From Companilactobacillus allii (GTDB lineage Bacteria; Bacillota; Bacilli; Lactobacillales; Lactobacillaceae): a stretch of 64,000 nucleotides of DNA. The stretch covers positions 1,974,053 to 2,038,052 of the forward strand of contig NZ_CP019323.1 in NCBI RefSeq assembly GCF_001971585.1, given 5' to 3'. The first letter of the stretch is position 1, and every line of letters starts with the position of its first letter. The position numbers were made by a program, and so were the translations under genes. This document shows positions 2,734 through 16,511 of the stretch, in pieces. The notes under the pieces were generated by a model, which did not search any database, had not been told where the DNA came from, and was given only the letters and a program-made list of their open reading frames with translations.

Positions 2734-3359
2734 TTTTTCTCCCTCCCACTTTCTATAAGCGATTGAACTGCTTTAATATAGGGTAAAGTAGGGTTATAGT
2801 CAGGACTAACTTCAACTGAACAATCAATAATTTGTTTTAGTTGAATTGATTTTGGACCGTTGTTTCTTTGTCCATTCCAATATTCAAAGAGGTTGTCAAC
2901 TGGCATTATGAAATAACGCTTCAAGGAAACATATTTGATAATTACAAAACATATTCCTCCCTGTTTTTGACAAGCTCTCAAATGGTCAATTTGGTGTTGA
3001 TGAAAGTTCTTTAGTGGAAATGTGTTCTTGTGTGTTGTTTCTTTTGCCTCAAAATCAATATAGTAACCATTATAAATTCCATTGTAGTCAGTTGTAGAGG
3101 CTTGTGCGAAATAAGCTTCTTTGATAACTGCACGACTACGCTTAGGATAGTCTACTTTAACAATCTGGATAGGCGTTGGTTTCTTATAAATAACAGCAAT
3201 ATCGTGGCTACGGTAATATTTATTGCTTTCATTTATTTCTTCCTCCAGTGTCATACCACGGTCACCAAAAATCATTTTCTTTTTAGCTGAGGTATTAACT
3301 GGAGATTTTTTTGATGGGGGAGTATTAAACGCTCTTCCATCAGGATAATTAATTTTCAA
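2730..3359 (-). CDS. recU: Holliday junction resolvase RecU
   Basis: RecU cuts Holliday junctions in homologous recombination and chromosome segregation. The 209-aa protein has the usual length. It shows the N-terminal KINYPDGR start, the TTDYNGIYNGYYIDFEAKET core (Asp91, Asp102, Glu104 and Lys106 in the nuclease site) and NFHQHQIDHL after it. The start is TTG at 3359, supported by AGGAG eight bases upstream; no better ATG exists. An extended -10 box lies just upstream. The gene is followed without a gap by ponA, as in many Firmicutes. Confidence 0.95.
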   Translation of the reverse strand: MKINYPDGRAFNTPPSKKSPVNTSAKKKMIFGDRGMTLEEEINESNKYYRSHDIAVIYKKPTPIQIVKVDYPKRSRAVIKEAYFAQASTTDYNGIYNGYYIDFEAKETTHKNTFPLKNFHQHQIDHLRACQKQGGICFVIIKYVSLKRYFIMPVDNLFEYWNGQRNNGPKSIQLKQIIDCSVEVSPDYNPTLPYIKAVQSLIESGREKK

Positions 3360-3377
3360 AATATCAACTCCTACTTG

Positions 3378-3389
3378 TGCATTATACCA
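3378..3389 (-). promoter_or_regulatory. Extended -10 promoter element for recU-ponA
   Basis: On the minus strand TGGTATAAT (TGn-TATAAT; hexamer at 3381-3386) sits about 20 bases before the recU Shine-Dalgarno. No good -35 is visible, which is normal for extended -10 promoters. Confidence 0.6.
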
Positions 3390-3499
3390 TGGCGATGTGA
3401 ATTATAGAGAGAGTGAGTAATTCACAAATATTAAACATTGTTTATAGTATTATAGAATAAAAGCTTGTTAGTTTAAAATTTTTTAAGGAGATTTTTTCA

Positions 3500-4051
3500 A
3501 TGATCAAAAATTTATGGGTAACTGGCTATCGATCATATGAAATCGGATTATTTAAACCTGACGATCCAAAGGCCAAAGTCATACAAAAGTTCTTTACTGA
3601 ACGATTAATAAATTATGCAGAAGATGGAATGCAATGGGTATTAACAGGTGCTCAACTTGGAACGGAACAAATAATTGGAAAGTCCATACAAGATGTAAAA
3701 TCTCAAGGATATGAAATAAAACATGCTGTAATATTGCCATTTGCACAATTTGGAGACAAATGGAACGAAAATAATCGTCAATTACTAAATATTTTTTTAA
3801 GAAATGCCGACTATGTTAATAAATTGACGAATATGGGGTATCATTCAAGTGAACAATTAAGAGCTTGGCAAAGTTTCATGTTAAAACACACTGATGGAGC
3901 CATGATATTTTATGATCCGGATAGTGAAGGAAAACCAAAGTTTGACTATAAGTCTATTGAAAACTACCGAAATAACGGGAATAATTACGAATTAGAACTA
4001 GTTGATTTTGATACTATGCAGGATTTTGCTAATATAATGTTTGATAACTAG
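3500..4051 (+). CDS. ypsA: YpsA, SLOG-superfamily protein (DUF1273)
   Basis: This 183-aa protein opens with the family signature (MIKNLWVTGYRSYEIGLF) and has the Rossmann-like fold motifs LTGAQLGTEQ and AVILPFAQFGDKWN. The SLOG superfamily binds nucleotide-type ligands; B. subtilis and S. aureus YpsA have been linked to cell division and stress. It sits between recU and gpsB, the same neighbourhood as in Bacillus, which supports a link with division. A clear AAGGAG precedes the ATG. The biochemical activity is unknown. Confidence 0.9.
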   Translation: MIKNLWVTGYRSYEIGLFKPDDPKAKVIQKFFTERLINYAEDGMQWVLTGAQLGTEQIIGKSIQDVKSQGYEIKHAVILPFAQFGDKWNENNRQLLNIFLRNADYVNKLTNMGYHSSEQLRAWQSFMLKHTDGAMIFYDPDSEGKPKFDYKSIENYRNNGNNYELELVDFDTMQDFANIMFDN

Positions 4052-4105
4052 CTTAAAGGTAAGTTCTTTTGTTATAATTAACTAACATAAATTGGGGTGT
4101 TCAAA

Positions 4106-4801
4106 ATGAATAATATGAATCAGATGAATGGATTTAATCCACAACCAAATAACGATAATGAATTTGTTTTAAATTTCCAACCAAATGATATTTTGCAAAA
4201 GGAATTTAAAACAAAGATGAGAGGATACGATCCTACAGAAGTTGATCAATTCCTAGATGGAATCATCAAGGATTATGAAGCTTACTCAAATGAGTTGAAT
4301 CGTATTCAATCAGAAAATGAAAATCTCAAGAATCAATTGGGATCAAAAGGACAACGTCCCCAGCAAGCACAACCTATGAAAAACCGTGCCGTTGGACCTA
4401 GACCACAGATGAAGAATCAACAAAAATCTGCAAGTGCTATTGCTGCAGAGGCTGAATCTTCTACTAATTTTGATATTCTAAAAAGAATATCGAATTTAGA
4501 GAATCGTGTTTTCGGACACGACTTTTCGAATGGATTGCCTGAAGAAAATGGTCATGACGCAAATGTTAAACAATTTGCATCAGCTGCTGTTCCTAATAAT
4601 ATGAATGGTGTTGAAAGTGGTCATAATGAAATCAATCCTCGTATGAACCAGCAAAATGCTGATCACGGAACACAACAACCTCAGATGAATAATCAACAAG
4701 GATTCAATGATCAGAATCATTTTCAATCTAACCGTCAAGGACAGAATATGAATGGTTTTAATGGAAATATTAATAATAATGGTAATTTTAACCAATATTA
4801 G
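4106..4801 (+). CDS. gpsB: Cell-division regulator GpsB with a long Asn/Gln-rich tail
   Basis: GpsB couples penicillin-binding proteins to the division and elongation machineries at the membrane. The DivIVA-like domain lies at about residues 28-78 (NDILQKEFKTKMRGYDPTEV, then DQFLDGIIKDYEAYSNEL coiled coil). The conserved C-terminal trimerisation helix is at 121-138 (NFDILKRISNLENRVFG). Typical GpsB ends there, at about 110 aa. This one continues for 93 residues of Asn, Gln, Met and Gly-rich low-complexity sequence and also carries about 25 extra N-terminal residues. I chose ATG 4106, six bases after GGGGTG, over a GTG at 4097. A TATAAT at 4073-4078 may drive it. The frame is intact to a stop just before the rnpB -10 box. 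Confidence 0.93.
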   Translation: MNNMNQMNGFNPQPNNDNEFVLNFQPNDILQKEFKTKMRGYDPTEVDQFLDGIIKDYEAYSNELNRIQSENENLKNQLGSKGQRPQQAQPMKNRAVGPRPQMKNQQKSASAIAAEAESSTNFDILKRISNLENRVFGHDFSNGLPEENGHDANVKQFASAAVPNNMNGVESGHNEINPRMNQQNADHGTQQPQMNNQQGFNDQNHFQSNRQGQNMNGFNGNINNNGNFNQY

Positions 4802-4817
4802 TGTATAATGAACTCAT

Positions 4818-5190
4818 CGGTAAATTTTGAGTAATCGCGGCCTAGTTATCTAGGCTGAGGAAAGTCCACGCCCGCACGAGCTGAGATGCTTGTAGTGTCC
4901 GTGCTTGGCCCAATAAGCCAAGGTACCTTCGGGTAACGGCAGCGAACGCACTAAAGCTTTTGCCATGTGTTACTAGCTTGAAAGTGCCACAGAGACGTAG
5001 TATTACGGGAAACCGTAATAGTGGAACGAGGTAAACCCCGCGAGCGGGCAACCCAAACTTTGGTAGGGGCGCTTCATAACGAGAAATGAATCTACTGTGA
5101 AGGCGTAATTGTAGATAGATGATTACTAACTGTATCGGAGTGCCTAGCCGGTACATGAACAGAACGTGGCTTATAGAAATTTACTATGGT
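4818..5190 (+). ncRNA. rnpB: RNase P RNA
   Basis: This is the catalytic RNA of RNase P, which matures tRNA 5' ends. The universal blocks are present: GAGGAAAGTCC near the 5' end (4857-4867), and ACAGAACGTGGCTTAT near the 3' end (about 5158-5173). The P1 helix closes with GTAAATTT (4820-4827) against AAATTTAC (5177-5184), which sets the ends. A TATAAT at 4804-4809, directly after the gpsB stop, is the likely -10. An open frame on the opposite strand here is not a gene. The gpsB-rnpB-rlmL order matches Bacillus. Confidence 0.96.
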
Positions 5191-5193
5191 AAG

Positions 5194-5217
5194 GGACGAC
5201 TTGTTCGTCCTTTTTTT
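5194..5217 (+). terminator. rnpB terminator
   Basis: A GGACGA/TTCGTCC hairpin is followed by seven Ts immediately after the RNase P RNA. Confidence 0.92.
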
Positions 5218-5250
5218 GTATGAAAAATTAAAACTCATGAAGAGGTAGAA

Positions 5251-6369
5251 ATGAAATTAATTGCGACAATGTCAAGCGGTTTTGAAGCTATAACCGCACG
5301 TGAATTACAGGATTTAGGTTATGAGACTCAAACGGAGAATGGCAAAGTATATTTTGATGGTGAATATGAAGATATCGCCAAAGCTAATCTTTGGTTACGT
5401 AGTGCTGATCGTATTAAGATTATTGTTGGAACTTTTGAAGCAACTTCATTTGAAGAATTGTTTGATAAAGTATACGCAATAGCTTGGGATAAATGGTTGC
5501 CATTAAATGCAGCATTTCCCATCAAAGCGAGAACCGTTAAGTCAGAGCTTCATTCAGAACGCGATATTCAAGCAATTACTAAAAAGGCCATTGTTAATAA
5601 AATGGCTGATGTTTATATGCGTCGAGGTCGTTTACCAGAATCTGGAGCAACTTTCCAAATTGAAACGCGTATTCATAAAGATCAAGTAGAAGTAACCATT
5701 GATACAACGGGGGCATCATTATATAAACGTGGATACCGTGTTGAGCACGGTGTGGCTCCTCTAAAAGAGAATTTTGCTGCCGCAATGATTTTATTGACAG
5801 TTTGGCATCCTGATATGCCCTTTATCGATCCAACAACTGGTTCAGGAACAATTGCAATTGAAGCTGCACGATTGGCTAGAAACATTGCGCCGGGTATTCA
5901 GCGTAACTTCGCATTTGAAGATTTCGATTGGTTTGATTCTAAAATAATTACTAATTTAAAAGAAGAAGCTAGAGCTAACGAAAAAGATATTGATCTTGAT
6001 ATATTTGCTAGTGATATTGATGGTTCAATGATTGATCTTGCTAAGTTAAATGCTCACGATGCTGGTGTTTTACATGACATTCAATTTAAGCAAGTTGCTG
6101 TAAAGGATTTGAAAATTGAAGGTGATGATGGTGTTATCATTACCAACCCTCCATATGGTCAACGTATGAGTGATATGGAAACTGTTAGAAAATTGTATAA
6201 AGAAATGGGAACGGTATTTTCAACCGCTCCCACATGGAGTAAATATATTCTTACTAGTGATTTGGAATTTGAGAAATACTATGGACAAAGAGCTACTAAG
6301 AAACGTAAGTTATATAATGGTTCGATTAGAGCCGATTATTATCAATATTGGGCAAAACGTCGTCATTAA
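5251..6369 (+). CDS. rlmL: THUMP-domain class I RNA methyltransferase (RlmL/YpsC family)
   Basis: The 372-aa protein has an N-terminal ferredoxin-like/THUMP RNA-binding region (about 1-155) and a C-terminal SAM-dependent methyltransferase. The SAM-binding motif is DPTTGSGTIAIEAA and the catalytic motif is NPPYGQRM, the signature of enzymes that methylate exocyclic amines of guanine. E. coli RlmL makes m2G2445 in 23S rRNA; this shorter Gram-positive form corresponds to B. subtilis YpsC. It directly follows rnpB as in Bacillus. The stop codon abuts the stop of the convergent corA gene with no spacer. Confidence 0.9.
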   Translation: MKLIATMSSGFEAITARELQDLGYETQTENGKVYFDGEYEDIAKANLWLRSADRIKIIVGTFEATSFEELFDKVYAIAWDKWLPLNAAFPIKARTVKSELHSERDIQAITKKAIVNKMADVYMRRGRLPESGATFQIETRIHKDQVEVTIDTTGASLYKRGYRVEHGVAPLKENFAAAMILLTVWHPDMPFIDPTTGSGTIAIEAARLARNIAPGIQRNFAFEDFDWFDSKIITNLKEEARANEKDIDLDIFASDIDGSMIDLAKLNAHDAGVLHDIQFKQVAVKDLKIEGDDGVIITNPPYGQRMSDMETVRKLYKEMGTVFSTAPTWSKYILTSDLEFEKYYGQRATKKRKLYNGSIRADYYQYWAKRRH

Positions 6370-7314
6370 TTATAAACTGTCACGACGGTGAAGGTCCCAT
6401 AAAATCATAAGAATCAACGCACCAGTGACAAGTAGTGAAAAGAACCATGACCACCATTTGTCCGCAACGGGAAGTTTCATATTCATACCATAAAAACCTG
6501 ATACGATCGTGGGAATACTTAAGACAATTGTGTAAACTGTCAGTATTTTCATGGTCGTATTTGTTTGATTATTCAAAATATTATTGTATGTATTAGCAAC
6601 TCGGTCAATAATATCAGAAGTTAAATTGGCTTGATCTCTAATTTGCTCAATTTCAATGATCGAATCATGAAGATGCTCTTTAGATTTCTTCGTTAGATTT
6701 ATATCTTGGATTTTACCAGTAGAAATGATTTCAATCTGTTTGACAACATTAAAATTACCATTGATAGCTGTACTGATATATGTAATCAAATCTTCCAACT
6801 CAGCCAATTCTAAAATTTGGTTCTTAGAAGAACGGCTACGTTTTATGTGATTTTGAATTCGATTGCGGTCTTGGTTAATGTCACTCATACGGTCATTGTA
6901 ATCGCTTGTTATTTGATCAAAAGTGTTGAATATGATCTCCCATATACGATCCTCTATACTACTTTCGAAGTGATGATGCGCATTTATTACGTAATCCTTT
7001 ATGTAATGAGTCGAATTATTTGTGAATAAGAATAGTTGATCGCCTTTAATTGCAAAAGAAATGGGTAAGGTACTTCCAGAAAGCGTGTCATCATCAACAT
7101 TTTCATTTTGTACATTAAAGACAATTAAAAAAGTACTTGCTTGTTCATCGTATTCTAAACGAGCACGTTCATTTGTATCATCAGCGTAATCTAAAATTTC
7201 ATTAGTAATATTATATTTTTCAATTAATATATTACGATCTTTGTCACTGAGATTTTCCTTAGAGTTAATATCTACTAACGTCAAATCTTGGCCTATTGGT
7301 TGTGAATTTATCAT
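6370..7314 (-). CDS. corA: CorA-family magnesium/divalent-cation transporter
   Basis: This 314-aa protein has a large cytosolic N-terminal domain rich in acidic and helical sequence. Two C-terminal membrane helices follow, the first ending in the hallmark YGMNM motif (ion-selectivity loop) before the second helix. Family members are pentameric Mg2+ channels gated by intracellular Mg2+. GGGAG lies about seven bases before the ATG. It is a single-gene unit: the upstream lplA ends at its own strong terminator, and the convergent rlmL stops at the adjacent base. Confidence 0.92.
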   Translation of the reverse strand: MINSQPIGQDLTLVDINSKENLSDKDRNILIEKYNITNEILDYADDTNERARLEYDEQASTFLIVFNVQNENVDDDTLSGSTLPISFAIKGDQLFLFTNNSTHYIKDYVINAHHHFESSIEDRIWEIIFNTFDQITSDYNDRMSDINQDRNRIQNHIKRSRSSKNQILELAELEDLITYISTAINGNFNVVKQIEIISTGKIQDINLTKKSKEHLHDSIIEIEQIRDQANLTSDIIDRVANTYNNILNNQTNTTMKILTVYTIVLSIPTIVSGFYGMNMKLPVADKWWSWFFSLLVTGALILMILWDLHRRDSL

Positions 7315-7348
7315 TATTGTTCTCCCTCAAAAATAATAATATCATAAA

Positions 7349-7392
7349 AAAGCAGGTTGATTATTCGATAATTGAATAATCAACCTGCTTTA
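7349..7392 (-). terminator. lplA terminator
   Basis: A perfect 18-bp inverted repeat (AAAGCAGGTTGATTATTC and its complement) with a 7-base loop is followed on the minus strand by a T run, between lplA and corA. Confidence 0.93.
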
Positions 7393-7409
7393 AATTTAAG
7401 TAAATAAAA

Positions 7410-8423
7410 TTATGGAGTAAATAATGTAGTTAATTGATCTTGTGGGATACCCTTGAAATAATCATCCAAGTTGAATCCTTTTAGTACTGAAAGGATTTCA
7501 TCACGATCAAACTTAGTATTGACCAACTTTTCTTTAATCTCAGTAACATCTTTCATACCGAAGTAATCACCATATATTTCTGCGGTGTCGATTTTTCCAT
7601 CTTCAACATTGTAACGTACATCAACAGTACCCATGTCAAAGTGCTTTCTTTGTTTAGCAGTGAATTTAGGTGATTTTCCATAAACCCAATCCCAATTGTA
7701 GTAATATTGTTCCTTCAGCTTATCAATTTCTTTTTGATCTTCTGGAGTAACGATATACTCGTGATCTTTGATCTCGTCTAAGGAGTTAGCGTGGAATAGT
7801 TCCAACAGTAATTTGTCACGGAATTGTTCAGTAGTTAAATCTTGATATTCTTTAGCAAGGTAGGGACGTACATTTGTAACACGACTTCTGATCGATTTGA
7901 TGCCTTTAGAAGCAATCTTATCCTTTTGAACGTGTAGTGCCTTAGTCAAGACATCAAGGTCAACATCAAGTGAAAGTGTACCGTGTGAGAATGTTTTCCC
8001 GTTTCTTGAGTACATTGCATTACCGGAGAATTTCTTACCATCTACTAGTAGATCGTTTCTACCAGATACTTCGGCACTAGTTGCACCCATTTGATGCAAT
8101 GCATCGATAATAGGTTGAGTAAATGATTTAAAATCGCCAAAGTTACTGTCATCTGAATCAACCATGAAACTGAAACAAAGATTACCAAGATCTTGATATA
8201 CAGCACCGCCTCCAGATAAACGACGTGTAACTGTAATATTATTATCCTTTATATAATCAGGGTTAATCTCTTCCATTGTGTTTTGATTTCGCCCAACGAT
8301 GATACATGGTCCTTCGATATAAAATAAAACTAATGGTTCGTCAAATTCAACATTGTTCATTAAATATTGTTCAGTTGCCAAATTATCACGAATGTCACGA
8401 TCTTTCATTACAACATAGTACAT
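7410..8423 (-). CDS. lplA: Lipoate-protein ligase
   Basis: The enzyme activates free lipoate with ATP and transfers it to the lipoyl domains of 2-oxoacid dehydrogenases or the glycine cleavage H protein. The 337-aa sequence has the LplA signatures RRLSGGGAVYQDLGNLCFSF (lipoyl-adenylate loop) and GKKFSGNAM, in which the Lys contacts the substrate. A C-terminal accessory domain of about 90 residues follows (from KEQYYYNWDWVYGKSP). The gene is monocistronic, with AAGGGGG before the ATG and a strong terminator behind. No lipoylated enzyme genes are nearby. Confidence 0.95.
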   Translation of the reverse strand: MYYVVMKDRDIRDNLATEQYLMNNVEFDEPLVLFYIEGPCIIVGRNQNTMEEINPDYIKDNNITVTRRLSGGGAVYQDLGNLCFSFMVDSDDSNFGDFKSFTQPIIDALHQMGATSAEVSGRNDLLVDGKKFSGNAMYSRNGKTFSHGTLSLDVDLDVLTKALHVQKDKIASKGIKSIRSRVTNVRPYLAKEYQDLTTEQFRDKLLLELFHANSLDEIKDHEYIVTPEDQKEIDKLKEQYYYNWDWVYGKSPKFTAKQRKHFDMGTVDVRYNVEDGKIDTAEIYGDYFGMKDVTEIKEKLVNTKFDRDEILSVLKGFNLDDYFKGIPQDQLTTLFTP

Positions 8424-8498
8424 AAAAGTGCCCCCTTAAGTAATTTTGTAAGCGATTTAATAGTATCACAAATTTCACAAAGGGAACATTAAAAACAT

Positions 8499-8891
8499 TT
8501 ACTTTCGGAGTTTAATTAGTTCTTGATGAATTAGACTATGTGCAGTGTTATTATCTTTATCGGAAATATGTTTAACAAAGTAAGATGGAAATTTGGTTAG
8601 ACTTTCTAGAATTGGATCTAAGATAGCTTGGTAATGTTTAGAATAAAGTTTATCAATACTATCTGTTAAAATTTTACTATCAGAGTGAATGAATAAGATA
8701 TCGTCATTGATATGTTGTCTGTTCATATCGTCTAAGGCCAGTTTCAAGGCTAAGAATTCTAGATAGTGATTATCGAGTGGTTGTTGCTGTTCAACGTGCT
8801 TGATAATTTGGTCATTATATTTTATTACGTATGAAGTGGCAGCAAGATTTAAATTAGTATTTAAACCAGCGTCGGTGTACAATTTAATCAT
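8499..8891 (-). CDS. RNase H-like domain protein
   Basis: This 130-aa protein has the RNase HI fold pattern: YTDAG with Asp7, LEFLALKLAL with Glu45, and IHSDSK with Asp71. The family fourth carboxylate would fall in DNNTAHSLIHQEL, where His118 occupies the usual Asp place. That His variant also occurs in the reverse-transcriptase-like (RVT_3) branch, so the protein may be an RNA-DNA hybrid nuclease of that branch or a nucleic-acid binder. It is divergently arranged with ebsA, 27 bases away. The fold assignment is good and the activity is unproven. Confidence 0.75.
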   Translation of the reverse strand: MIKLYTDAGLNTNLNLAATSYVIKYNDQIIKHVEQQQPLDNHYLEFLALKLALDDMNRQHINDDILFIHSDSKILTDSIDKLYSKHYQAILDPILESLTKFPSYFVKHISDKDNNTAHSLIHQELIKLRK

Positions 8892-8918
8892 CTTATTAAA
8901 AACCTTTCAGGAGTAGAT

Positions 8919-9320
8919 ATGTCAAAGAAATTTTTTGTTCAACCCACGGGCTCATGGGGAATTATTGTGTGGTCACTTGCGTTTAGTATTCTGTGTTTGG
9001 GAGTGATTTTACAGCTAGAAATATTTAGTTTTAGCTTCATTCCATTTCTTGTATGGATTTTGGGAATAGTTTTCGTAATTTATATTGTAACTAATTCCTG
9101 GGTGAAGTTTGATGATGGCAAGATCATAATTAAGGAACCTAATTATTATAAAGCACGTGTGTTTAATCGAACAGATGTCAAAATAGAAACAATTAATAAA
9201 TTGACTATCGAATTTTTATTTGATAATCGTGATTATTTTCCGTTGAGGGTCACTTCAACTACGAAAATTTTAAAGGGAATTAAGAAAGAAGCGGGTGGAG
9301 ATAATGGCATTTCCAAGTGA
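8919..9320 (+). CDS. ebsA: EbsA-family membrane protein
   Basis: The 133-aa protein starts [19 protein letters not shown], the recognisable start of the EbsA family, and has two membrane helices (about 14-33 and 38-58) followed by a short cytosolic, PH-like beta domain. EbsA was named from an Enterococcus aggregation-substance locus, but its role is not known. It overlaps the start of fhs by 17 bases and should be co-transcribed with it. Confidence 0.75.
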
Positions 9321-11447: not shown

Positions 11448-12345
11448 TGAACCAATAGAATTAGTATTTAACGATACTAAAAAAGCTAGATTAGATAATT
11501 TTGCGAGTGAGAATCTAGAAGATTTCACTCGTTCACAAATTCAAAAGTTTATTAAAGACGAAAATATCTTAGTAAATGGAGAAACTGCTACCAAAGCTGG
11601 TATGAAGCTTAAACACGGTGATAAGATAACATTGGTTATTCCTGAAGAAAAACCAATGAAGGCAGTTCCACAAGATATACCACTAGATGTCATTTACGAA
11701 GATGAAGATGTTTTGGTGGTTAATAAGCCACAAGGGATGGTAGTTCACCCAGCAGCTGGACATCGTGATGGTACTTTAGTTAATGCCATTTTGTATCACA
11801 GTAAAATTAACGATGATGATATGGTTCGTCCAGGTATTGTGCATCGGATCGATAAAGATACATCAGGTTTATTGATGGTTGCAAAAAATGATTTGGCTAA
11901 GAGATCATTGATGAAACAACTAAAGGAAAAGACTAATCTCAGAGAGTATGTCGCAATCGTCCATGGTGGTTTTGAAGAGTCTAAGGGGAAGATAAATGCT
12001 CCATTAGGCCGTTCAAAGTATGATCGTAAGAAACAAGCCGTTGTTGACGATGGTCGTAATGCAGTTACTCATTTTGAGGTTTTGGAACAATTCGAAAATT
12101 ACTCACTACTTAAATTAAAATTAGAAACAGGTCGTACTCATCAAATTAGAGTACATATGCAATACATCGGACATCCAGTAGCTGGAGATCCATTGTATGG
12201 ACCTAAGAACACACTAGAGGGGAATGGACAATTTCTTCATGCGAAAACACTTGGATTTGAACATCCAAGAACACATGAGTGGATGCAATTCTCAGTTGAG
12301 CCACCTAAAATATTCCTTGATACCTTAAAGGAATTACGCGGTTGA
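11431..12345 (+). CDS. rluD: RluD-family 23S rRNA pseudouridine synthase
   Basis: The 304-aa protein has an N-terminal S4 RNA-binding domain (ARLDNFASENLEDFTRSQIQ and on) and a C-terminal synthase domain with the catalytic HRIDKDTSGLLMVAK (first Asp is the nucleophile) and the GRTHQIRVH motif. GTG 11431 is the only usable start: the frame has a stop three codons upstream. It lies inside the lspA end, so translation is coupled. The stop codon falls within the -35 box of the pyrR promoter. Confidence 0.94.
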   Translation: MTKITDEPIELVFNDTKKARLDNFASENLEDFTRSQIQKFIKDENILVNGETATKAGMKLKHGDKITLVIPEEKPMKAVPQDIPLDVIYEDEDVLVVNKPQGMVVHPAAGHRDGTLVNAILYHSKINDDDMVRPGIVHRIDKDTSGLLMVAKNDLAKRSLMKQLKEKTNLREYVAIVHGGFEESKGKINAPLGRSKYDRKKQAVVDDGRNAVTHFEVLEQFENYSLLKLKLETGRTHQIRVHMQYIGHPVAGDPLYGPKNTLEGNGQFLHAKTLGFEHPRTHEWMQFSVEPPKIFLDTLKELRG

Positions 12346-12368
12346 CACACTAGTAGTTGTGCTATAAT
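12342..12368 (+). promoter_or_regulatory. Promoter of pyrR
   Basis: TTGACA (12342-12347) and TATAAT (12363-12368) are separated by 15 bases, with a TGn extension before the -10 (TGCTATAAT). The -35 overlaps the rluD stop codon. Transcription should start near 12375. Confidence 0.85.
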
Positions 12369-12380
12369 CTGAATTTAGTT

Positions 12381-12981
<601 letters not shown>

Positions 12982-13006
12982 TTTAGTTTAGGGGAGTTGC
13001 TTTTTA

Positions 13007-14095
13007 ATGAAGCGTTATTTAATTTTAGAAGATGGAACCGTCTTCCCCGGTGTGGGATTTGGATCCTCTGTTATAACTACTGGACAATTAATAATATCTA
13101 ATAATCGTACCGGAATTGAGCAATCAGTAACTGATCCAGATGCTGAGGGCCAAATTCTGGCTTTTACGATACCCTCAATCGGTAGTTCTGGTATCAATCG
13201 TGATTTTTATGAGTCAATCAATTCACAATGCAAAGGTGTTGTTATTGGGTCTTCCAGCCATACAACAATCGATGGTTCAATCTCTTTTGGTGATTGGATC
13301 ACAGGATTAGGTATTCCTGGTATTAAAAACGTTGATGTCCGTGCTTTAGCCAAGCATATTGCTGAATATGGAGAAATGAAAGCTAGCATTATGGATACTC
13401 ACGATGAACATGCAATTGATCAAATAAAAGCACTAGTTTTGCCTCCTGACCTTGTTAAACGTGTTTCGACAAGACAGTCATATCCTAATCCCAACATGGG
13501 AATAAAGATTGTTGTGGTAGATTTAGGATTAAAATATTCAATTCTTCGTCAATTGTCGTATCGTGACTGTAATTCTGTGATCGTTAACTATAATTCCACA
13601 CCAGAAGAGATTGAAAATCTACATCCAGATGGAATTATTTTTTCAAACGGACCAGGATCACCTAGTGATATCCCACAAACCATTGAAACAATAAAGATTT
13701 TACAAAAAAAATACCCAATTTTAGGTATCGGACTGGGGAACTTATTAATTGCACTTGCTAATGACTGTAAGATAGTCAAATTGGATCAACCACATCATGA
13801 ATCGTCACTAGCAGTTAAAGAAGTTGCCAGTGGCAAGATTGATTTTGTTAATCATAATCATTCGTATACTATAGATCAAAAGTACATTGGTTCTTCTGAT
13901 TTCATCGTAACGAATATTTGTGTTGCCGACGGTAGCATTGAAGGTATTAGACATGAATATCTACCAATCATGTGTGTGTTATTTGAACCAGAAGCCGCAC
14001 CTGGACCTAATGATGGATATTATGTTTTTGATGAATTCATTGATTTGATAGATTCAATTAAATTTCAAGATGATGGGAGTAGAGATCAATGGTAG
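13007..14095 (+). CDS. CarA-like protein without glutaminase catalytic residues (pseudo-CarA)
   Basis: It aligns from end to end with the small (glutaminase) subunit of carbamoyl-phosphate synthase at normal length (362 aa): MKRYLILEDGTVFPG start, GINRDFYESI, IPGIKNVDVRALAKHI and SNGPGSPSDI are all kept. The amidotransferase site is not. Where the family has GICLGHQ the sequence is GIGLGNL, so the nucleophile Cys is Gly242 and the next His is Asn245. In the YHPEASPGP motif the catalytic His is Glu327. It cannot hydrolyse glutamine by the known mechanism. The frame is undamaged, and it overlaps the carB-like gene by seven bases. Automatic annotation would call it carA; I infer a non-catalytic or repurposed protein. 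Confidence 0.85.
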   Translation: MKRYLILEDGTVFPGVGFGSSVITTGQLIISNNRTGIEQSVTDPDAEGQILAFTIPSIGSSGINRDFYESINSQCKGVVIGSSSHTTIDGSISFGDWITGLGIPGIKNVDVRALAKHIAEYGEMKASIMDTHDEHAIDQIKALVLPPDLVKRVSTRQSYPNPNMGIKIVVVDLGLKYSILRQLSYRDCNSVIVNYNSTPEEIENLHPDGIIFSNGPGSPSDIPQTIETIKILQKKYPILGIGLGNLLIALANDCKIVKLDQPHHESSLAVKEVASGKIDFVNHNHSYTIDQKYIGSSDFIVTNICVADGSIEGIRHEYLPIMCVLFEPEAAPGPNDGYYVFDEFIDLIDSIKFQDDGSRDQW

Positions 14096-16491
14096 AAAAT
14101 GAGCCTCACAGTATACTAATTATCGGCCCAACAACTAGTGATAAGAATGTTGATCTATCAACGGCCGTTTATGATACCGTCGAAATCTTGCATCAACTCG
14201 GCTACAAAATATCTGTAATTGTTGAAGACCCAACGTCGCTTCTTTCGTCAGGTAAGTTTTTCGATAGGATAGTGGTTGAACGTGTAACTGGCGAACACGT
14301 GTTGAATTTTATCAATGAATATCACCCCGATGCTGTATTACCTACAGTTGGTGATCGTAATGCCTTAGGTATTGTTTCAAGTTTGAATGGCAAGATCGGT
14401 AATGTAAAAATTCTTGGTTCGAATTATATGGCATCCTTAGCAACCTTTAAACGAGAATTATTCATTAAGAAATTAACTGAAAATAAGTTACCGGTAATTA
14501 ATTTTATTTCATCAGATGATGAAAAAGAGATCTATAGTTTTATTCGGTCGATTGGTTTTCCAATTATTGCAAGAAGAAGATATTCAAATCGTCATTCTAG
14601 TGGTTGGACTAATATAAATAATCTATTTGAACTAGATAATTTTATGGCCATAGGTGATGTTGATGATACTAGGATTGAAATCGAACGTAGTATTAGAGGA
14701 TTTAGTGAGTATTCATTTACAGTCGTACGCGATATGTTTGATAATACTGCTTTGATCGGTACGATCGAGGATATTGAGCCTATTGGTATTCATCATTTGG
14801 ATTCGAATTTGATCTCACCTGCAATATCGTTGAATGATTCTAAATTACAACGGATGCGTTCGGCATCTTTGAAGCTTGCTAGAGCGTTTGATATCGTTGG
14901 GATATGTACAGTGCATTTTGCATATAATCATAAGACAAATGAGTACTTTATTACTGAGTTTATTCCAAGACTTAGTGAAGAGACAAAATTTCTAGAATAT
15001 GCGACAAGTTATCCAATTGCCACAAGTGTTGTAGAACTTGCACTTGGATATCATTTGGATAAACTGCAACTTGACGGAGGACGTGTTTTTAATGGTGCAT
15101 CTGAGCCATTTGTTGATCATATAACATCACGCTTTCCTCAATGGGGTACTGATAAACAAGAGTATTTAGGACCCAGTAAGACCTCTAATTCTAGTATTGT
15201 TGTCAATGGATTTAGTGTTGAAGAGGTATTCAATAAAGGTGCCTTAAATGATAAGTTGAATAATAATTCGAAGCGACATGATATATTGGAGAAATTGGAT
15301 GATGATGAACTTTTTGAAAAAATAATTCATCCAACCAATTGGATGTTAGACGTCTTGCTTGAAGCGTTGAGAAGAAAATTTGAGATGCCAGTACTTTCAG
15401 AGATAACTGGAATTACTATGCCGTATTTGAGTGTATTAAATAATATTAGAAAAACGTTTGAAGTTATCGATAACGACGAAGTTACCAAAGATAATGTAGA
15501 ACGACTAGTTGAGATGGGAATTAAAAATATTGGCCAGAGTAAGGTTTTACTTGATACAGACGATATAGTTACAAAGTCTGTAGTTAAGAGTAAACGTTCA
15601 ATATCAGTCTCAAATAGAAACTATAATAATCAGAATTTTTTTGTTACTTCGGGAATAGATTCTGATTTGGAATTGAACGATAAGAATAAGATCATTGTTA
15701 GATCTCCGATAATAACTTCGAAGACAGATATTTTAGTTAGACAGTTTGTTTTAACGCAGTTGATTAAGTCTATTGATCAAAATGGACTAGAGGCGGTAGT
15801 GATTGGACGTGAACCTTGGACAGCACCGTTATCTATGCGTGAAAAAGTCATTGAAATAGATGATCCTTATATGGAAATGAAAGAATTAGGCTTAATTCCT
15901 GAAGACAGTATTTTTAAAATAATTGATTTCTCAAGGCATTTGAGTGATGTAGATGATAATTCAAATGTTTTCCAAATTAGTTCTAAAAAGTTAAAAGATA
16001 TTGCTATTTCAACTAGTATTTCCATTAGGGCGATGGTAGTTACAGATGGCAATAATTACTTAGTACCTTCATTAATTTATCGTGAAGATCAAGATAAGCA
16101 TTCTTTTGAAGTCAGTTCATATAATAACTTTCTGTCTATAGAGGATCGTAGTGCTTTATCTGAATTAATAGAGCGAGAACTAGAAAATCAAAATGATGTT
16201 AATGTCTTTAATTTTGAGTTCTCTAAAAGTAATGGGCATTGGATTGTTACTAGGTTATATCAAGGGATGACTAACGATATTATTAGACATGAATTGGCAA
16301 GTTCAGTTCATGTGATTGATACGCTAGTCAAATTGATCCTTGGTAATAAGATAGATGATAATAAAACACTTCAAGAGGTGTTTCAAAATTGTGATGACCG
16401 CTATTTACTTACTATTGATGATAAGAAGTACAATTTACTAGCTTATGATGATATGAAGGAACAATTGAATAAACTAAAAAAAGAAGATTAG
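14089..16491 (+). CDS. Shortened CarB-like protein without ATP-grasp motifs (pseudo-CarB)
   Basis: It resembles the large subunit of carbamoyl-phosphate synthase but has 800 instead of about 1060 residues. The first half (1-390) still shows PDAVLPTVGDRNALG, IEPIGIHHLDS (family DPVGIHTGDS) and ITEFIPRLSEETKF (family IEVNPRVSRSSAL). The phosphate-binding GSGPIIIGQ is replaced by IGPTTSDKN. The GGTGGG loop is gone (ARRRYSNRHSSGW), the metal-binding Asn of EMNPR is Ile292, and the matching Gln is His276. The oligomerisation region (about 395-480) and a second pre-ATP-grasp lobe are recognisable. The second ATP-grasp is much reduced and the C-terminal allosteric domain is absent. There is no frameshift. 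It ends in a strong terminator. Confidence 0.82.
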   Translation: MVENEPHSILIIGPTTSDKNVDLSTAVYDTVEILHQLGYKISVIVEDPTSLLSSGKFFDRIVVERVTGEHVLNFINEYHPDAVLPTVGDRNALGIVSSLNGKIGNVKILGSNYMASLATFKRELFIKKLTENKLPVINFISSDDEKEIYSFIRSIGFPIIARRRYSNRHSSGWTNINNLFELDNFMAIGDVDDTRIEIERSIRGFSEYSFTVVRDMFDNTALIGTIEDIEPIGIHHLDSNLISPAISLNDSKLQRMRSASLKLARAFDIVGICTVHFAYNHKTNEYFITEFIPRLSEETKFLEYATSYPIATSVVELALGYHLDKLQLDGGRVFNGASEPFVDHITSRFPQWGTDKQEYLGPSKTSNSSIVVNGFSVEEVFNKGALNDKLNNNSKRHDILEKLDDDELFEKIIHPTNWMLDVLLEALRRKFEMPVLSEITGITMPYLSVLNNIRKTFEVIDNDEVTKDNVERLVEMGIKNIGQSKVLLDTDDIVTKSVVKSKRSISVSNRNYNNQNFFVTSGIDSDLELNDKNKIIVRSPIITSKTDILVRQFVLTQLIKSIDQNGLEAVVIGREPWTAPLSMREKVIEIDDPYMEMKELGLIPEDSIFKIIDFSRHLSDVDDNSNVFQISSKKLKDIAISTSISIRAMVVTDGNNYLVPSLIYREDQDKHSFEVSSYNNFLSIEDRSALSELIERELENQNDVNVFNFEFSKSNGHWIVTRLYQGMTNDIIRHELASSVHVIDTLVKLILGNKIDDNKTLQEVFQNCDDRYLLTIDDKKYNLLAYDDMKEQLNKLKKED

Positions 16492-16511
16492 CCATTGGCT
16501 AATCTTCTTTT
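16479..16511. terminator. Bidirectional terminator of the pyrR unit and rqcH
   Basis: A perfect 15-bp inverted repeat (core GAAGATTAGCC/GGCTAATCTTC, 3-base loop) with A and T flanks contains the stop codons of both convergent genes. Confidence 0.93.

Follow-up and report, generated by a model that had tools for sequence, protein, structure and literature searches.

A 64,000-nucleotide stretch of the Companilactobacillus allii genome (RefSeq assembly GCF_001971585.1, contig NZ_CP019323.1, positions 1,974,053 to 2,038,052 of the forward strand; hereafter the window) carries, directly downstream of the pyrimidine regulator gene pyrR, two genes whose products resemble the small and large subunits of carbamoyl-phosphate synthase (CPS), CarA and CarB. 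We designate these proteins A′ and B′. Comparisons of residues, domains, predicted structure and conservation across the Lactobacillaceae provide good support for viewing the pair as a conserved, probably non-catalytic derivative of CPS. The three genes, in window coordinates, are:

12457-12981, plus strand: pyrR, PyrR attenuation regulator / uracil phosphoribosyltransferase (ATG at 12457; named by NCBIfam PRK05205)
13007-14095, plus strand: A′, dead CarA-like protein of 362 amino acids (family models and residue alignment)
14089-16491, plus strand: B′, dead CarB-like protein of 800 amino acids (family models, alignment and structure model)

All three frames lie where an earlier reading of this DNA, made from the sequence alone, had placed them, and A′ and B′ overlap by the seven bases that it gave (14089-14095). 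PyrR itself is ordinary, scoring 278.9 bits against PRK05205 (cut-off 218).

Judged by family models, A′ is a full-length small subunit; its NCBIfam score for PRK12838, 344.1 bits, exceeds the cut-off of 221, and that for TIGR01368 falls narrowly short (305.3 bits, cut-off 307.35). We aligned it to Escherichia coli CarA, in which we take Cys269 to be the nucleophile and His353 the catalytic histidine, with Gln273 and Ser47 contributing to the glutamine pocket. The alignment bears out the three substitutions that the sequence-only reading had proposed: Gly242 replaces the nucleophile, Asn245 the next histidine and Glu327 the catalytic histidine. Within the pocket, Gln273 has become Leu246 and Ser47 has become Asp45. 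Glycine replaces the nucleophile in all 50 aligned A′ sequences (49 from short pairs plus that of L124, three of the 50 being from Companilactobacillus) and in A′ of 36/36 Companilactobacillus genomes, while cysteine is retained in 8/8 true CarA proteins. The catalytic histidine is gone in 36/36 and 15/15 A′ sequences in two tables, in which one record (L090 = L112) is counted twice. The E. coli CarA C269S mutant (1c30) is altered at the same position; in A′ the change is a natural Cys-to-Gly replacement, found in 50/50 sequences, and is accompanied by others. Asn161 (48/50) and His264 (47/50) of the window protein also distinguish dead A′ from the eight true CarA proteins, and are the only other positions that separate the two groups at 90% or more. 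The AlphaFold2 model of A′ was of insufficient quality (predicted local distance difference test [pLDDT] 52.9) and was set aside.

The large-subunit-like protein has diverged further. Its match to the NCBIfam large-subunit models is confined to their first half (221.9 bits, cut-off 599), accompanied by a weak match to the oligomerization domain. Alignment to E. coli CPS confirms that B′ no longer has the first-half loops GSGP and GGTGGG or the allosteric C-terminal domain, as had been noted. Two other proposed losses hold in part: the middle of ATP-grasp 2 is missing, but the second half remains alignable over the pre-ATP-grasp region and the end of ATP-grasp 2; and of the first-site metal ligands, which we take to be Q285, E299 and N301 in E. 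coli CarB, the window protein has lost Q285 and N301 but retains E299. It also keeps R129, R169, E215, G241, I242 and H243 (presumed E. coli numbering). An AlphaFold2 model of B′ (pLDDT 75.5; predicted template modeling score 0.72) was compared with the Protein Data Bank (PDB) by Foldseek, and the first 17 matches were all CPS entries. The best of these, 1c30_A, aligned with an E value of 2.1e-40, TMq 0.73, 18% identity and a root-mean-square deviation of 6.9 across approximately 900 alignment columns. B′ thus appears, by this modeling, to have kept the CPS fold and not the chemistry.

The same pattern recurs in other genomes. B′ measures 791-805 amino acids in 30 named database records, versus approximately 1058 for true CarB. 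The GGxGGG motif is found in 0/50 short B′ sequences, 0/36 from Companilactobacillus and 8/8 true CarB proteins, and at least one first-site metal ligand is missing from every B′ compared. Which ligand is lost depends on the lineage. Within a clade comprising Companilactobacillus and genera g52 and g25 (seven sequences; genomes, loci and taxa are given here by our own handles), E299 is kept, Q285 is replaced by His and N301 by Ile or Ser in 7/7; outside it, E299 is Lys or Arg in 43/43. R129 follows a similar divide, being kept in 6/7 of the Companilactobacillus-like clade and 1/28 elsewhere. Across the short B′ sequences, E215 is kept in 49/50, G241 and H243 in 50/50, and position 169 is Arg or Lys in 50/50. 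At the second ATP-grasp site, where the alignment is weak, N843 is kept in 0/35 sequences and E841 in 1/35. Positions G175 and E208 were set aside, as their columns were misaligned or varied among true CarB proteins as well. Companilactobacillus B′ proteins share in addition a conserved new loop around SNR..SGWTN. These tallies indicate that the metal site was destroyed in different ways while one side of the nucleotide site was conserved. Compared with glutamine-dependent CPS (CarA/CarB, PyrAA/PyrAB), the pair shares the two-gene order, a full-length small subunit, the first half of the large subunit and a CPS-like model; unlike CPS, it has lost the nucleophile, catalytic histidine, glutamine-binding residues, glycine loop, metal ligands and allosteric domain. 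The catalytic features that define the enzyme, namely a Cys-His glutaminase, two competent ATP-grasp sites and an allosteric domain, were looked for and not found, and for this reason the pair ought not to be classified as a carbamoyl-phosphate synthase.

Despite these losses, the genes are under purifying selection. A′ and B′ frames are intact in 36/36 Companilactobacillus genomes, with B′ of the 35 other genomes 60%-87% identical to that of the window. An internal stop (“1 TAA”) was flagged in five of these; the extracted frames are 796-799 amino acids long, and we interpret the stop as the genuine end of the gene, past which the alignment had run. Among named records, 27 of the 28 closest matches come from Companilactobacillus and one from an uncultured Lactobacillus; two more distant ones belong to Companilactobacillus sp. 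RD055328 and Lactobacillus sp. YT155, and the other seven matches are Streptococcus CarB. We estimated ratios of nonsynonymous to synonymous substitution (dN/dS) from 29 sequences (28 for rluD and rqcH, 27 for degV), using pairs with dS of 0.15-1.0. Saturation of silent sites left few usable pairs for A′ and B′. The medians were 0.013 for A′ (five pairs) and 0.025 for B′ (two pairs), alongside 0.037 for pyrR (21 pairs), 0.030 for fhs (11), 0.037 for rluD (7), 0.032 for rqcH (4), 0.060 for lspA (44) and 0.087 for degV (65). Over all pairs, the median dN of A′ was 0.092, and only pyrR was lower (0.070). The sequence-only reading had proposed selection for a non-catalytic role, to be abandoned if dN/dS lay near 1 or relatives carried frameshifts; neither appeared. 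The pair is kept by selection, and a non-catalytic role is likely.

Dead pairs extend well beyond Companilactobacillus. A profile search with A′ across 397 genomes of the family, together with inspection of loci, revealed the same arrangement in many genera, and short B′ proteins occur in at least 124 of 201 Lactobacillaceae genomes and at least 24 of 40 genera. This count comprises 120 genomes tallied by hand among the matches listed and four g25 genomes read afterwards; it includes one partial case (G217) and leaves out the single-match genomes of g26 and g31. A B′ profile applied to the 201 genomes separates short frames, which match to near the end of the model, from full-length CarB frames of 1059-1079 amino acids, which match approximately 630 of its 836 positions. 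The four g25 loci (L173-L176, in G103, G184, G229 and G065) have the order pyrR-A′-B′, B′ proteins of 789-798 amino acids and Gly for Cys, and are more divergent, with low profile scores. In other families of the order, no short B′ with full coverage was present among the matches listed; the 118 genomes searched comprised 15 Lactobacillaceae, at least 93 others, and ten that had no match at E 1e-100 and are outside the list. Three genomes of family f4, genus g5 (G039, G047 and G054) encode CarB-like frames of just 583-591 amino acids that resemble neither true CarB nor B′. No description of the dead pair appeared among the titles and abstract openings listed from a literature collection with few subscription papers.

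One genome suggests how the pair may have arisen. In G067 (L124, 4472-8754) the order is rluD-pyrR-permease-A′-CarB, the permease-like gene resembling uracil permease. Here A′ is dead and CarB is full length (1059 amino acids), grouping with the full-length frames in the profile search; it keeps the first GGxGGG and has lost E299 (to Ala), E841 and the second glycine loop. From these features, the G067 pair looks like an evolutionary intermediate. In a tree of A′ and CarA sequences, computed after seven near-duplicates were dropped, all dead A′ proteins fall on one side of a branch with 79/86 support, present in 78% of bootstrap trees; a long-branch warning applies to this tree, which hints at one common origin for the dead clade and does not prove it. 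The likely ancestral context is visible in a canonical operon, pyrR-uraA-pyrB-pyrC-carA-carB, which occupies the same place beside rluD and has the same order of PyrR, CarA and CarB genes. In G259 (L114, permease named) rluD is visible; G069 and G082 carry the same operon on stretches that end before rluD. Unlike this operon, the dead-pair unit lacks the permease, pyrB and pyrC, and its CPS is dead.

At the locus, six relatives that we read share the order fhs-lspA-rluD-pyrR-A′-B′-rqcH-degV, with fhs always truncated where the stretch ends. NCBIfam names fhs, the RluA-family synthase and the DegV-family protein; lspA was named by eye, with no NCBIfam match at 1e-40, and the sole match of the rqcH-like protein is to a fibronectin-binding-protein model, under its cut-off. 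Signals predicted around the three-gene unit (the triad) are:

12342-12368, plus strand: promoter of the pyrR-A′-B′ unit, read by eye: TTGACA, 15 bp, TGCTATAAT; TATAAT with an extended -10 (TGC)
12398-12434, plus strand: leader hairpin and T run, a putative attenuator-like terminator ahead of pyrR, predicted from sequence
16480-16511, symmetrical, no strand assigned: terminator-like hairpin between B′ and the convergent rqcH-like gene, read by eye

The promoter, attenuator and terminator described in the sequence-only reading are readable in the DNA. An Rfam search of the window leader gave no PyrR element, and its matches around the pair were all unrelated and under gathering scores. Among the 30 named records, TGnTATAAT lies upstream in 20, with TTGAC[AG] ahead of it in 14, and a leader hairpin of the window kind is kept in 26 (by eye). 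Three loci (L080, L081 and L083) have a hairpin upstream of pyrR whose sequence is unlike that of other Companilactobacillus, and in L086 pyrR has no leader.

The window genome carries its other pyrimidine genes elsewhere. The usual pyr genes are indeed absent after pyrR, as first noticed; they form a pyrB-C-F-E-D operon at 2.17 Mb, and a second, intact carAB, for which a search had been proposed, lies at C1:986-990 kb adjoining proBA. Each of the 36 Companilactobacillus genomes has a single PyrR match at E 1e-30, and that of the window genome is the one beside the dead pair. The pyr operon at 2.17 Mb has no pyrR of its own, and therefore the triad PyrR is its only candidate PyrR regulator. 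In 5/5 Companilactobacillus genomes tested, an RF00515 element precedes pyrB; four of these elements exceed the gathering score, and that of the window genome falls below it. Five Companilactobacillus genomes (L048, L049, L050, L053 and L055), the window genome among them, each have two PyrR-box motifs ahead of pyrB, and four of these five have T-box leaders near pyrB.

Not all carriers of the dead pair resemble the window genome in this respect. Full-length CarB is present in 32/36 Companilactobacillus genomes and missing from four, and in 27/120 carriers across the family another CarB-like protein was not seen at E 1e-20, where up to four best candidates were scored per genome. Taking these 27 together with G015, pyrB is over the cut-off in 10 of the 28, in two pieces in G015 and not over the cut-off in the other 17; 8 of the 28 show no pyrB match of any kind. 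Draft genomes may miss a gene. G015 itself (L051, 5396-6351) has pyrB in two pieces, no full-length CarB and an intact dead pair. C. musae (G014; L149, approximately 3069-8996), which has no full-length CarB, encodes arginine deiminase, ornithine carbamoyltransferase and carbamate kinase, a possible alternative source of carbamoyl phosphate. In genus g32, six of seven genomes compared lack both pyrB and a second CarB, and A′ there shows dN of 0.010-0.037 and dN/dS of 0.017 (seven pairs, dS 0.05-1.5). Because species that lack pyrB also retain the pair, its role cannot rest on the pyr operon alone; and because A′ is so strongly constrained in g32, neither a bicarbonate gauge for the pyr operon nor a partner of true CPS is the whole answer.

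Linkage to pyrR is frequent. Among 38 short-pair genomes tested, pyrR adjoins the dead pair in 30. PyrR-box cores occur in 8/37 triad leaders, some of them near-copies, versus 12/1850 random stretches; one such core stands before the triad of L169 (G100), a genome with no pyrB match. In genus g20, L126 (G181) and five other genomes have no pyrR beside the pair, their sole PyrR gene being distant or on a different contig, and in G181 and G204 PyrR is encoded on the contig of the full-length carB.

The Lactiplantibacillus plantarum group offers the closest connection to a studied system. All 21 genomes of this genus have two PyrRs, and in the four that we read the dead pair follows one of them, with a PyrR box in the cluster leader in 4/4. 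In G305, one PyrR heads a pyrR-B-C-carA-carB-D-F operon with true CarA and the other, 63.6% identical, heads the dead pair. A pyruvate oxidase of G305 is identical at 574/575 positions to PDB entry 1pow, which we take to be the L. plantarum enzyme; by this match, G305 belongs to L. plantarum or to its closest relative. Two other pyruvate oxidase copies of G305 proved to be only distant paralogues of the PDB enzyme. A pyrR2 mutant of L. plantarum reportedly needed high CO2, or arginine and pyrimidine together. Since the group has two PyrRs and the other one heads the true pyr operon, PyrR2 (lp_1782) should, by deduction, be the one that heads the dead pair. Passages of two reports describe PyrR2 as an inorganic-carbon regulator (PMC3582564, PMC7911632), with inorganic-carbon control of pyr genes as its output (PMC3582564). 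The two systems are alike in that the second PyrR of the L. plantarum group heads the same dead pair; they differ in that the triad PyrR of Companilactobacillus is the only one found, and those passages on PyrR2 are silent on the pair.

The reading that we favor, by a modest degree, is that pyrR-A′-B′ is a remnant of a pyrimidine operon at rluD whose CPS now serves as a non-catalytic regulatory complex with PyrR. A′ and B′ would continue to assemble into a CPS-like heterodimer, able to bind a small ligand but not to convert it. This complex would modify the control of transcription attenuation by the neighboring PyrR, or would otherwise signal the supply of pyrimidines and one-carbon units. 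The ligand could plausibly sit in the portion of ATP-grasp 1 that keeps R/K169, E215, G241 and H243, and a sensor role is possible. A more specific form is that the dead CPS is the missing sensor in inorganic-carbon control by PyrR2, with bicarbonate, an adenine nucleotide or carbamoyl phosphate bound in the crippled first site and signaled to PyrR2; this we offer tentatively, as a proposal that is less probable than not by some distance. Several findings weigh against the regulatory reading. The glutamine pocket is altered, with S47 lost in 50/51 and Q273 in 49/51 A′ sequences (one record counted twice); a glutamine sensor, which we also considered, is disfavored by these losses. B′ evolves faster than the other seven genes in the comparison (median dN 0.211). 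In 8/38 genomes (g20, 6/6; g22, 2/2) the sole PyrR gene is at another site, which shows that linkage is dispensable, and where present it may be a legacy of the ancestral pyr operon. PyrR was found in 44/44 genomes tested, including five controls without the pair, and its presence alone is therefore uninformative. No PyrR-box core was found in 29/37 triad leaders, that of the window included, and the weak or missing pyrB in so many genomes without a second CarB means that the pyr operon is not a universal target.

Some of the same observations would fit a structural or regulatory role unrelated to PyrR, with the pyrR neighborhood merely carried over from the ancestral operon. The unlinked pairs of g20 and g22, the persistence of the pair where neither pyrB nor a second CarB is found, and the full-length dead CPS of G067, still beside a uracil-permease-like gene, all agree with such a role. 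We nevertheless consider it doubtful, given that linkage is kept in 30/38 genomes and that PyrR-box cores precede the triad in some lineages, including the pyrB-less L169. A new enzymatic activity, for example that of another ATP-grasp ligase, would account for the residues kept around the nucleotide site (R/K169, G241 and H243 in 50/50 short sequences and E215 in 49/50) and for the SNR..SGWTN loop conserved in Companilactobacillus. Nonetheless, no B′ retains all the metal ligands of the first site, E299 being Ala even in L124, and since different clades lost different ligands, one shared new catalysis is not expected. The new ligase that the sequence-only reading had entertained is accordingly unlikely.

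That reading had also raised the possibility of a decoy partner of a true synthase. Such a decoy, or a dominant-negative partner, would bind true CPS subunits and tune the enzyme. A′ keeps the small-subunit fold by sequence and B′ the large-subunit fold by model, and most Companilactobacillus genomes (32/36) have a full-length CarB with which such a partner could pair. The four that do not, the 27 of 120 carriers in which no other CarB-like protein was seen among the best few candidates, and the constraint on A′ in g32, where six of seven genomes lack a second CarB, argue otherwise: because many carriers are without a true CPS, interference with it is disfavored as a general role, and we regard this explanation as improbable. 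Decay into a pair of pseudogenes would explain the loss of catalytic residues, loops and domains, but intact frames in all 36 Companilactobacillus genomes and dN/dS of 0.013 and 0.025, with low values in g32 as well, effectively rule it out and leave it barely credible. Having weighed these alternatives, we continue to prefer, with the reservations given, a non-catalytic complex that acts with PyrR.

If this is correct, a well-studied multi-subunit enzyme became a conserved regulatory complex deep in the lactic acid bacteria, and did so in a form that family models continue to recognize as a synthase subunit. Estimates of carbamoyl phosphate supply that rely on gene counts in these bacteria may then mislead. 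On the more tentative inorganic-carbon reading, 24 or more genera would share this module, PyrR would have targets outside the pyr genes where the pyr operon has been lost, and the effects of deleting pyrR2 in L. plantarum may come partly from the pair downstream of it. For L. plantarum, the pair would provide a concrete candidate for the means by which PyrR2 senses CO2 or bicarbonate.

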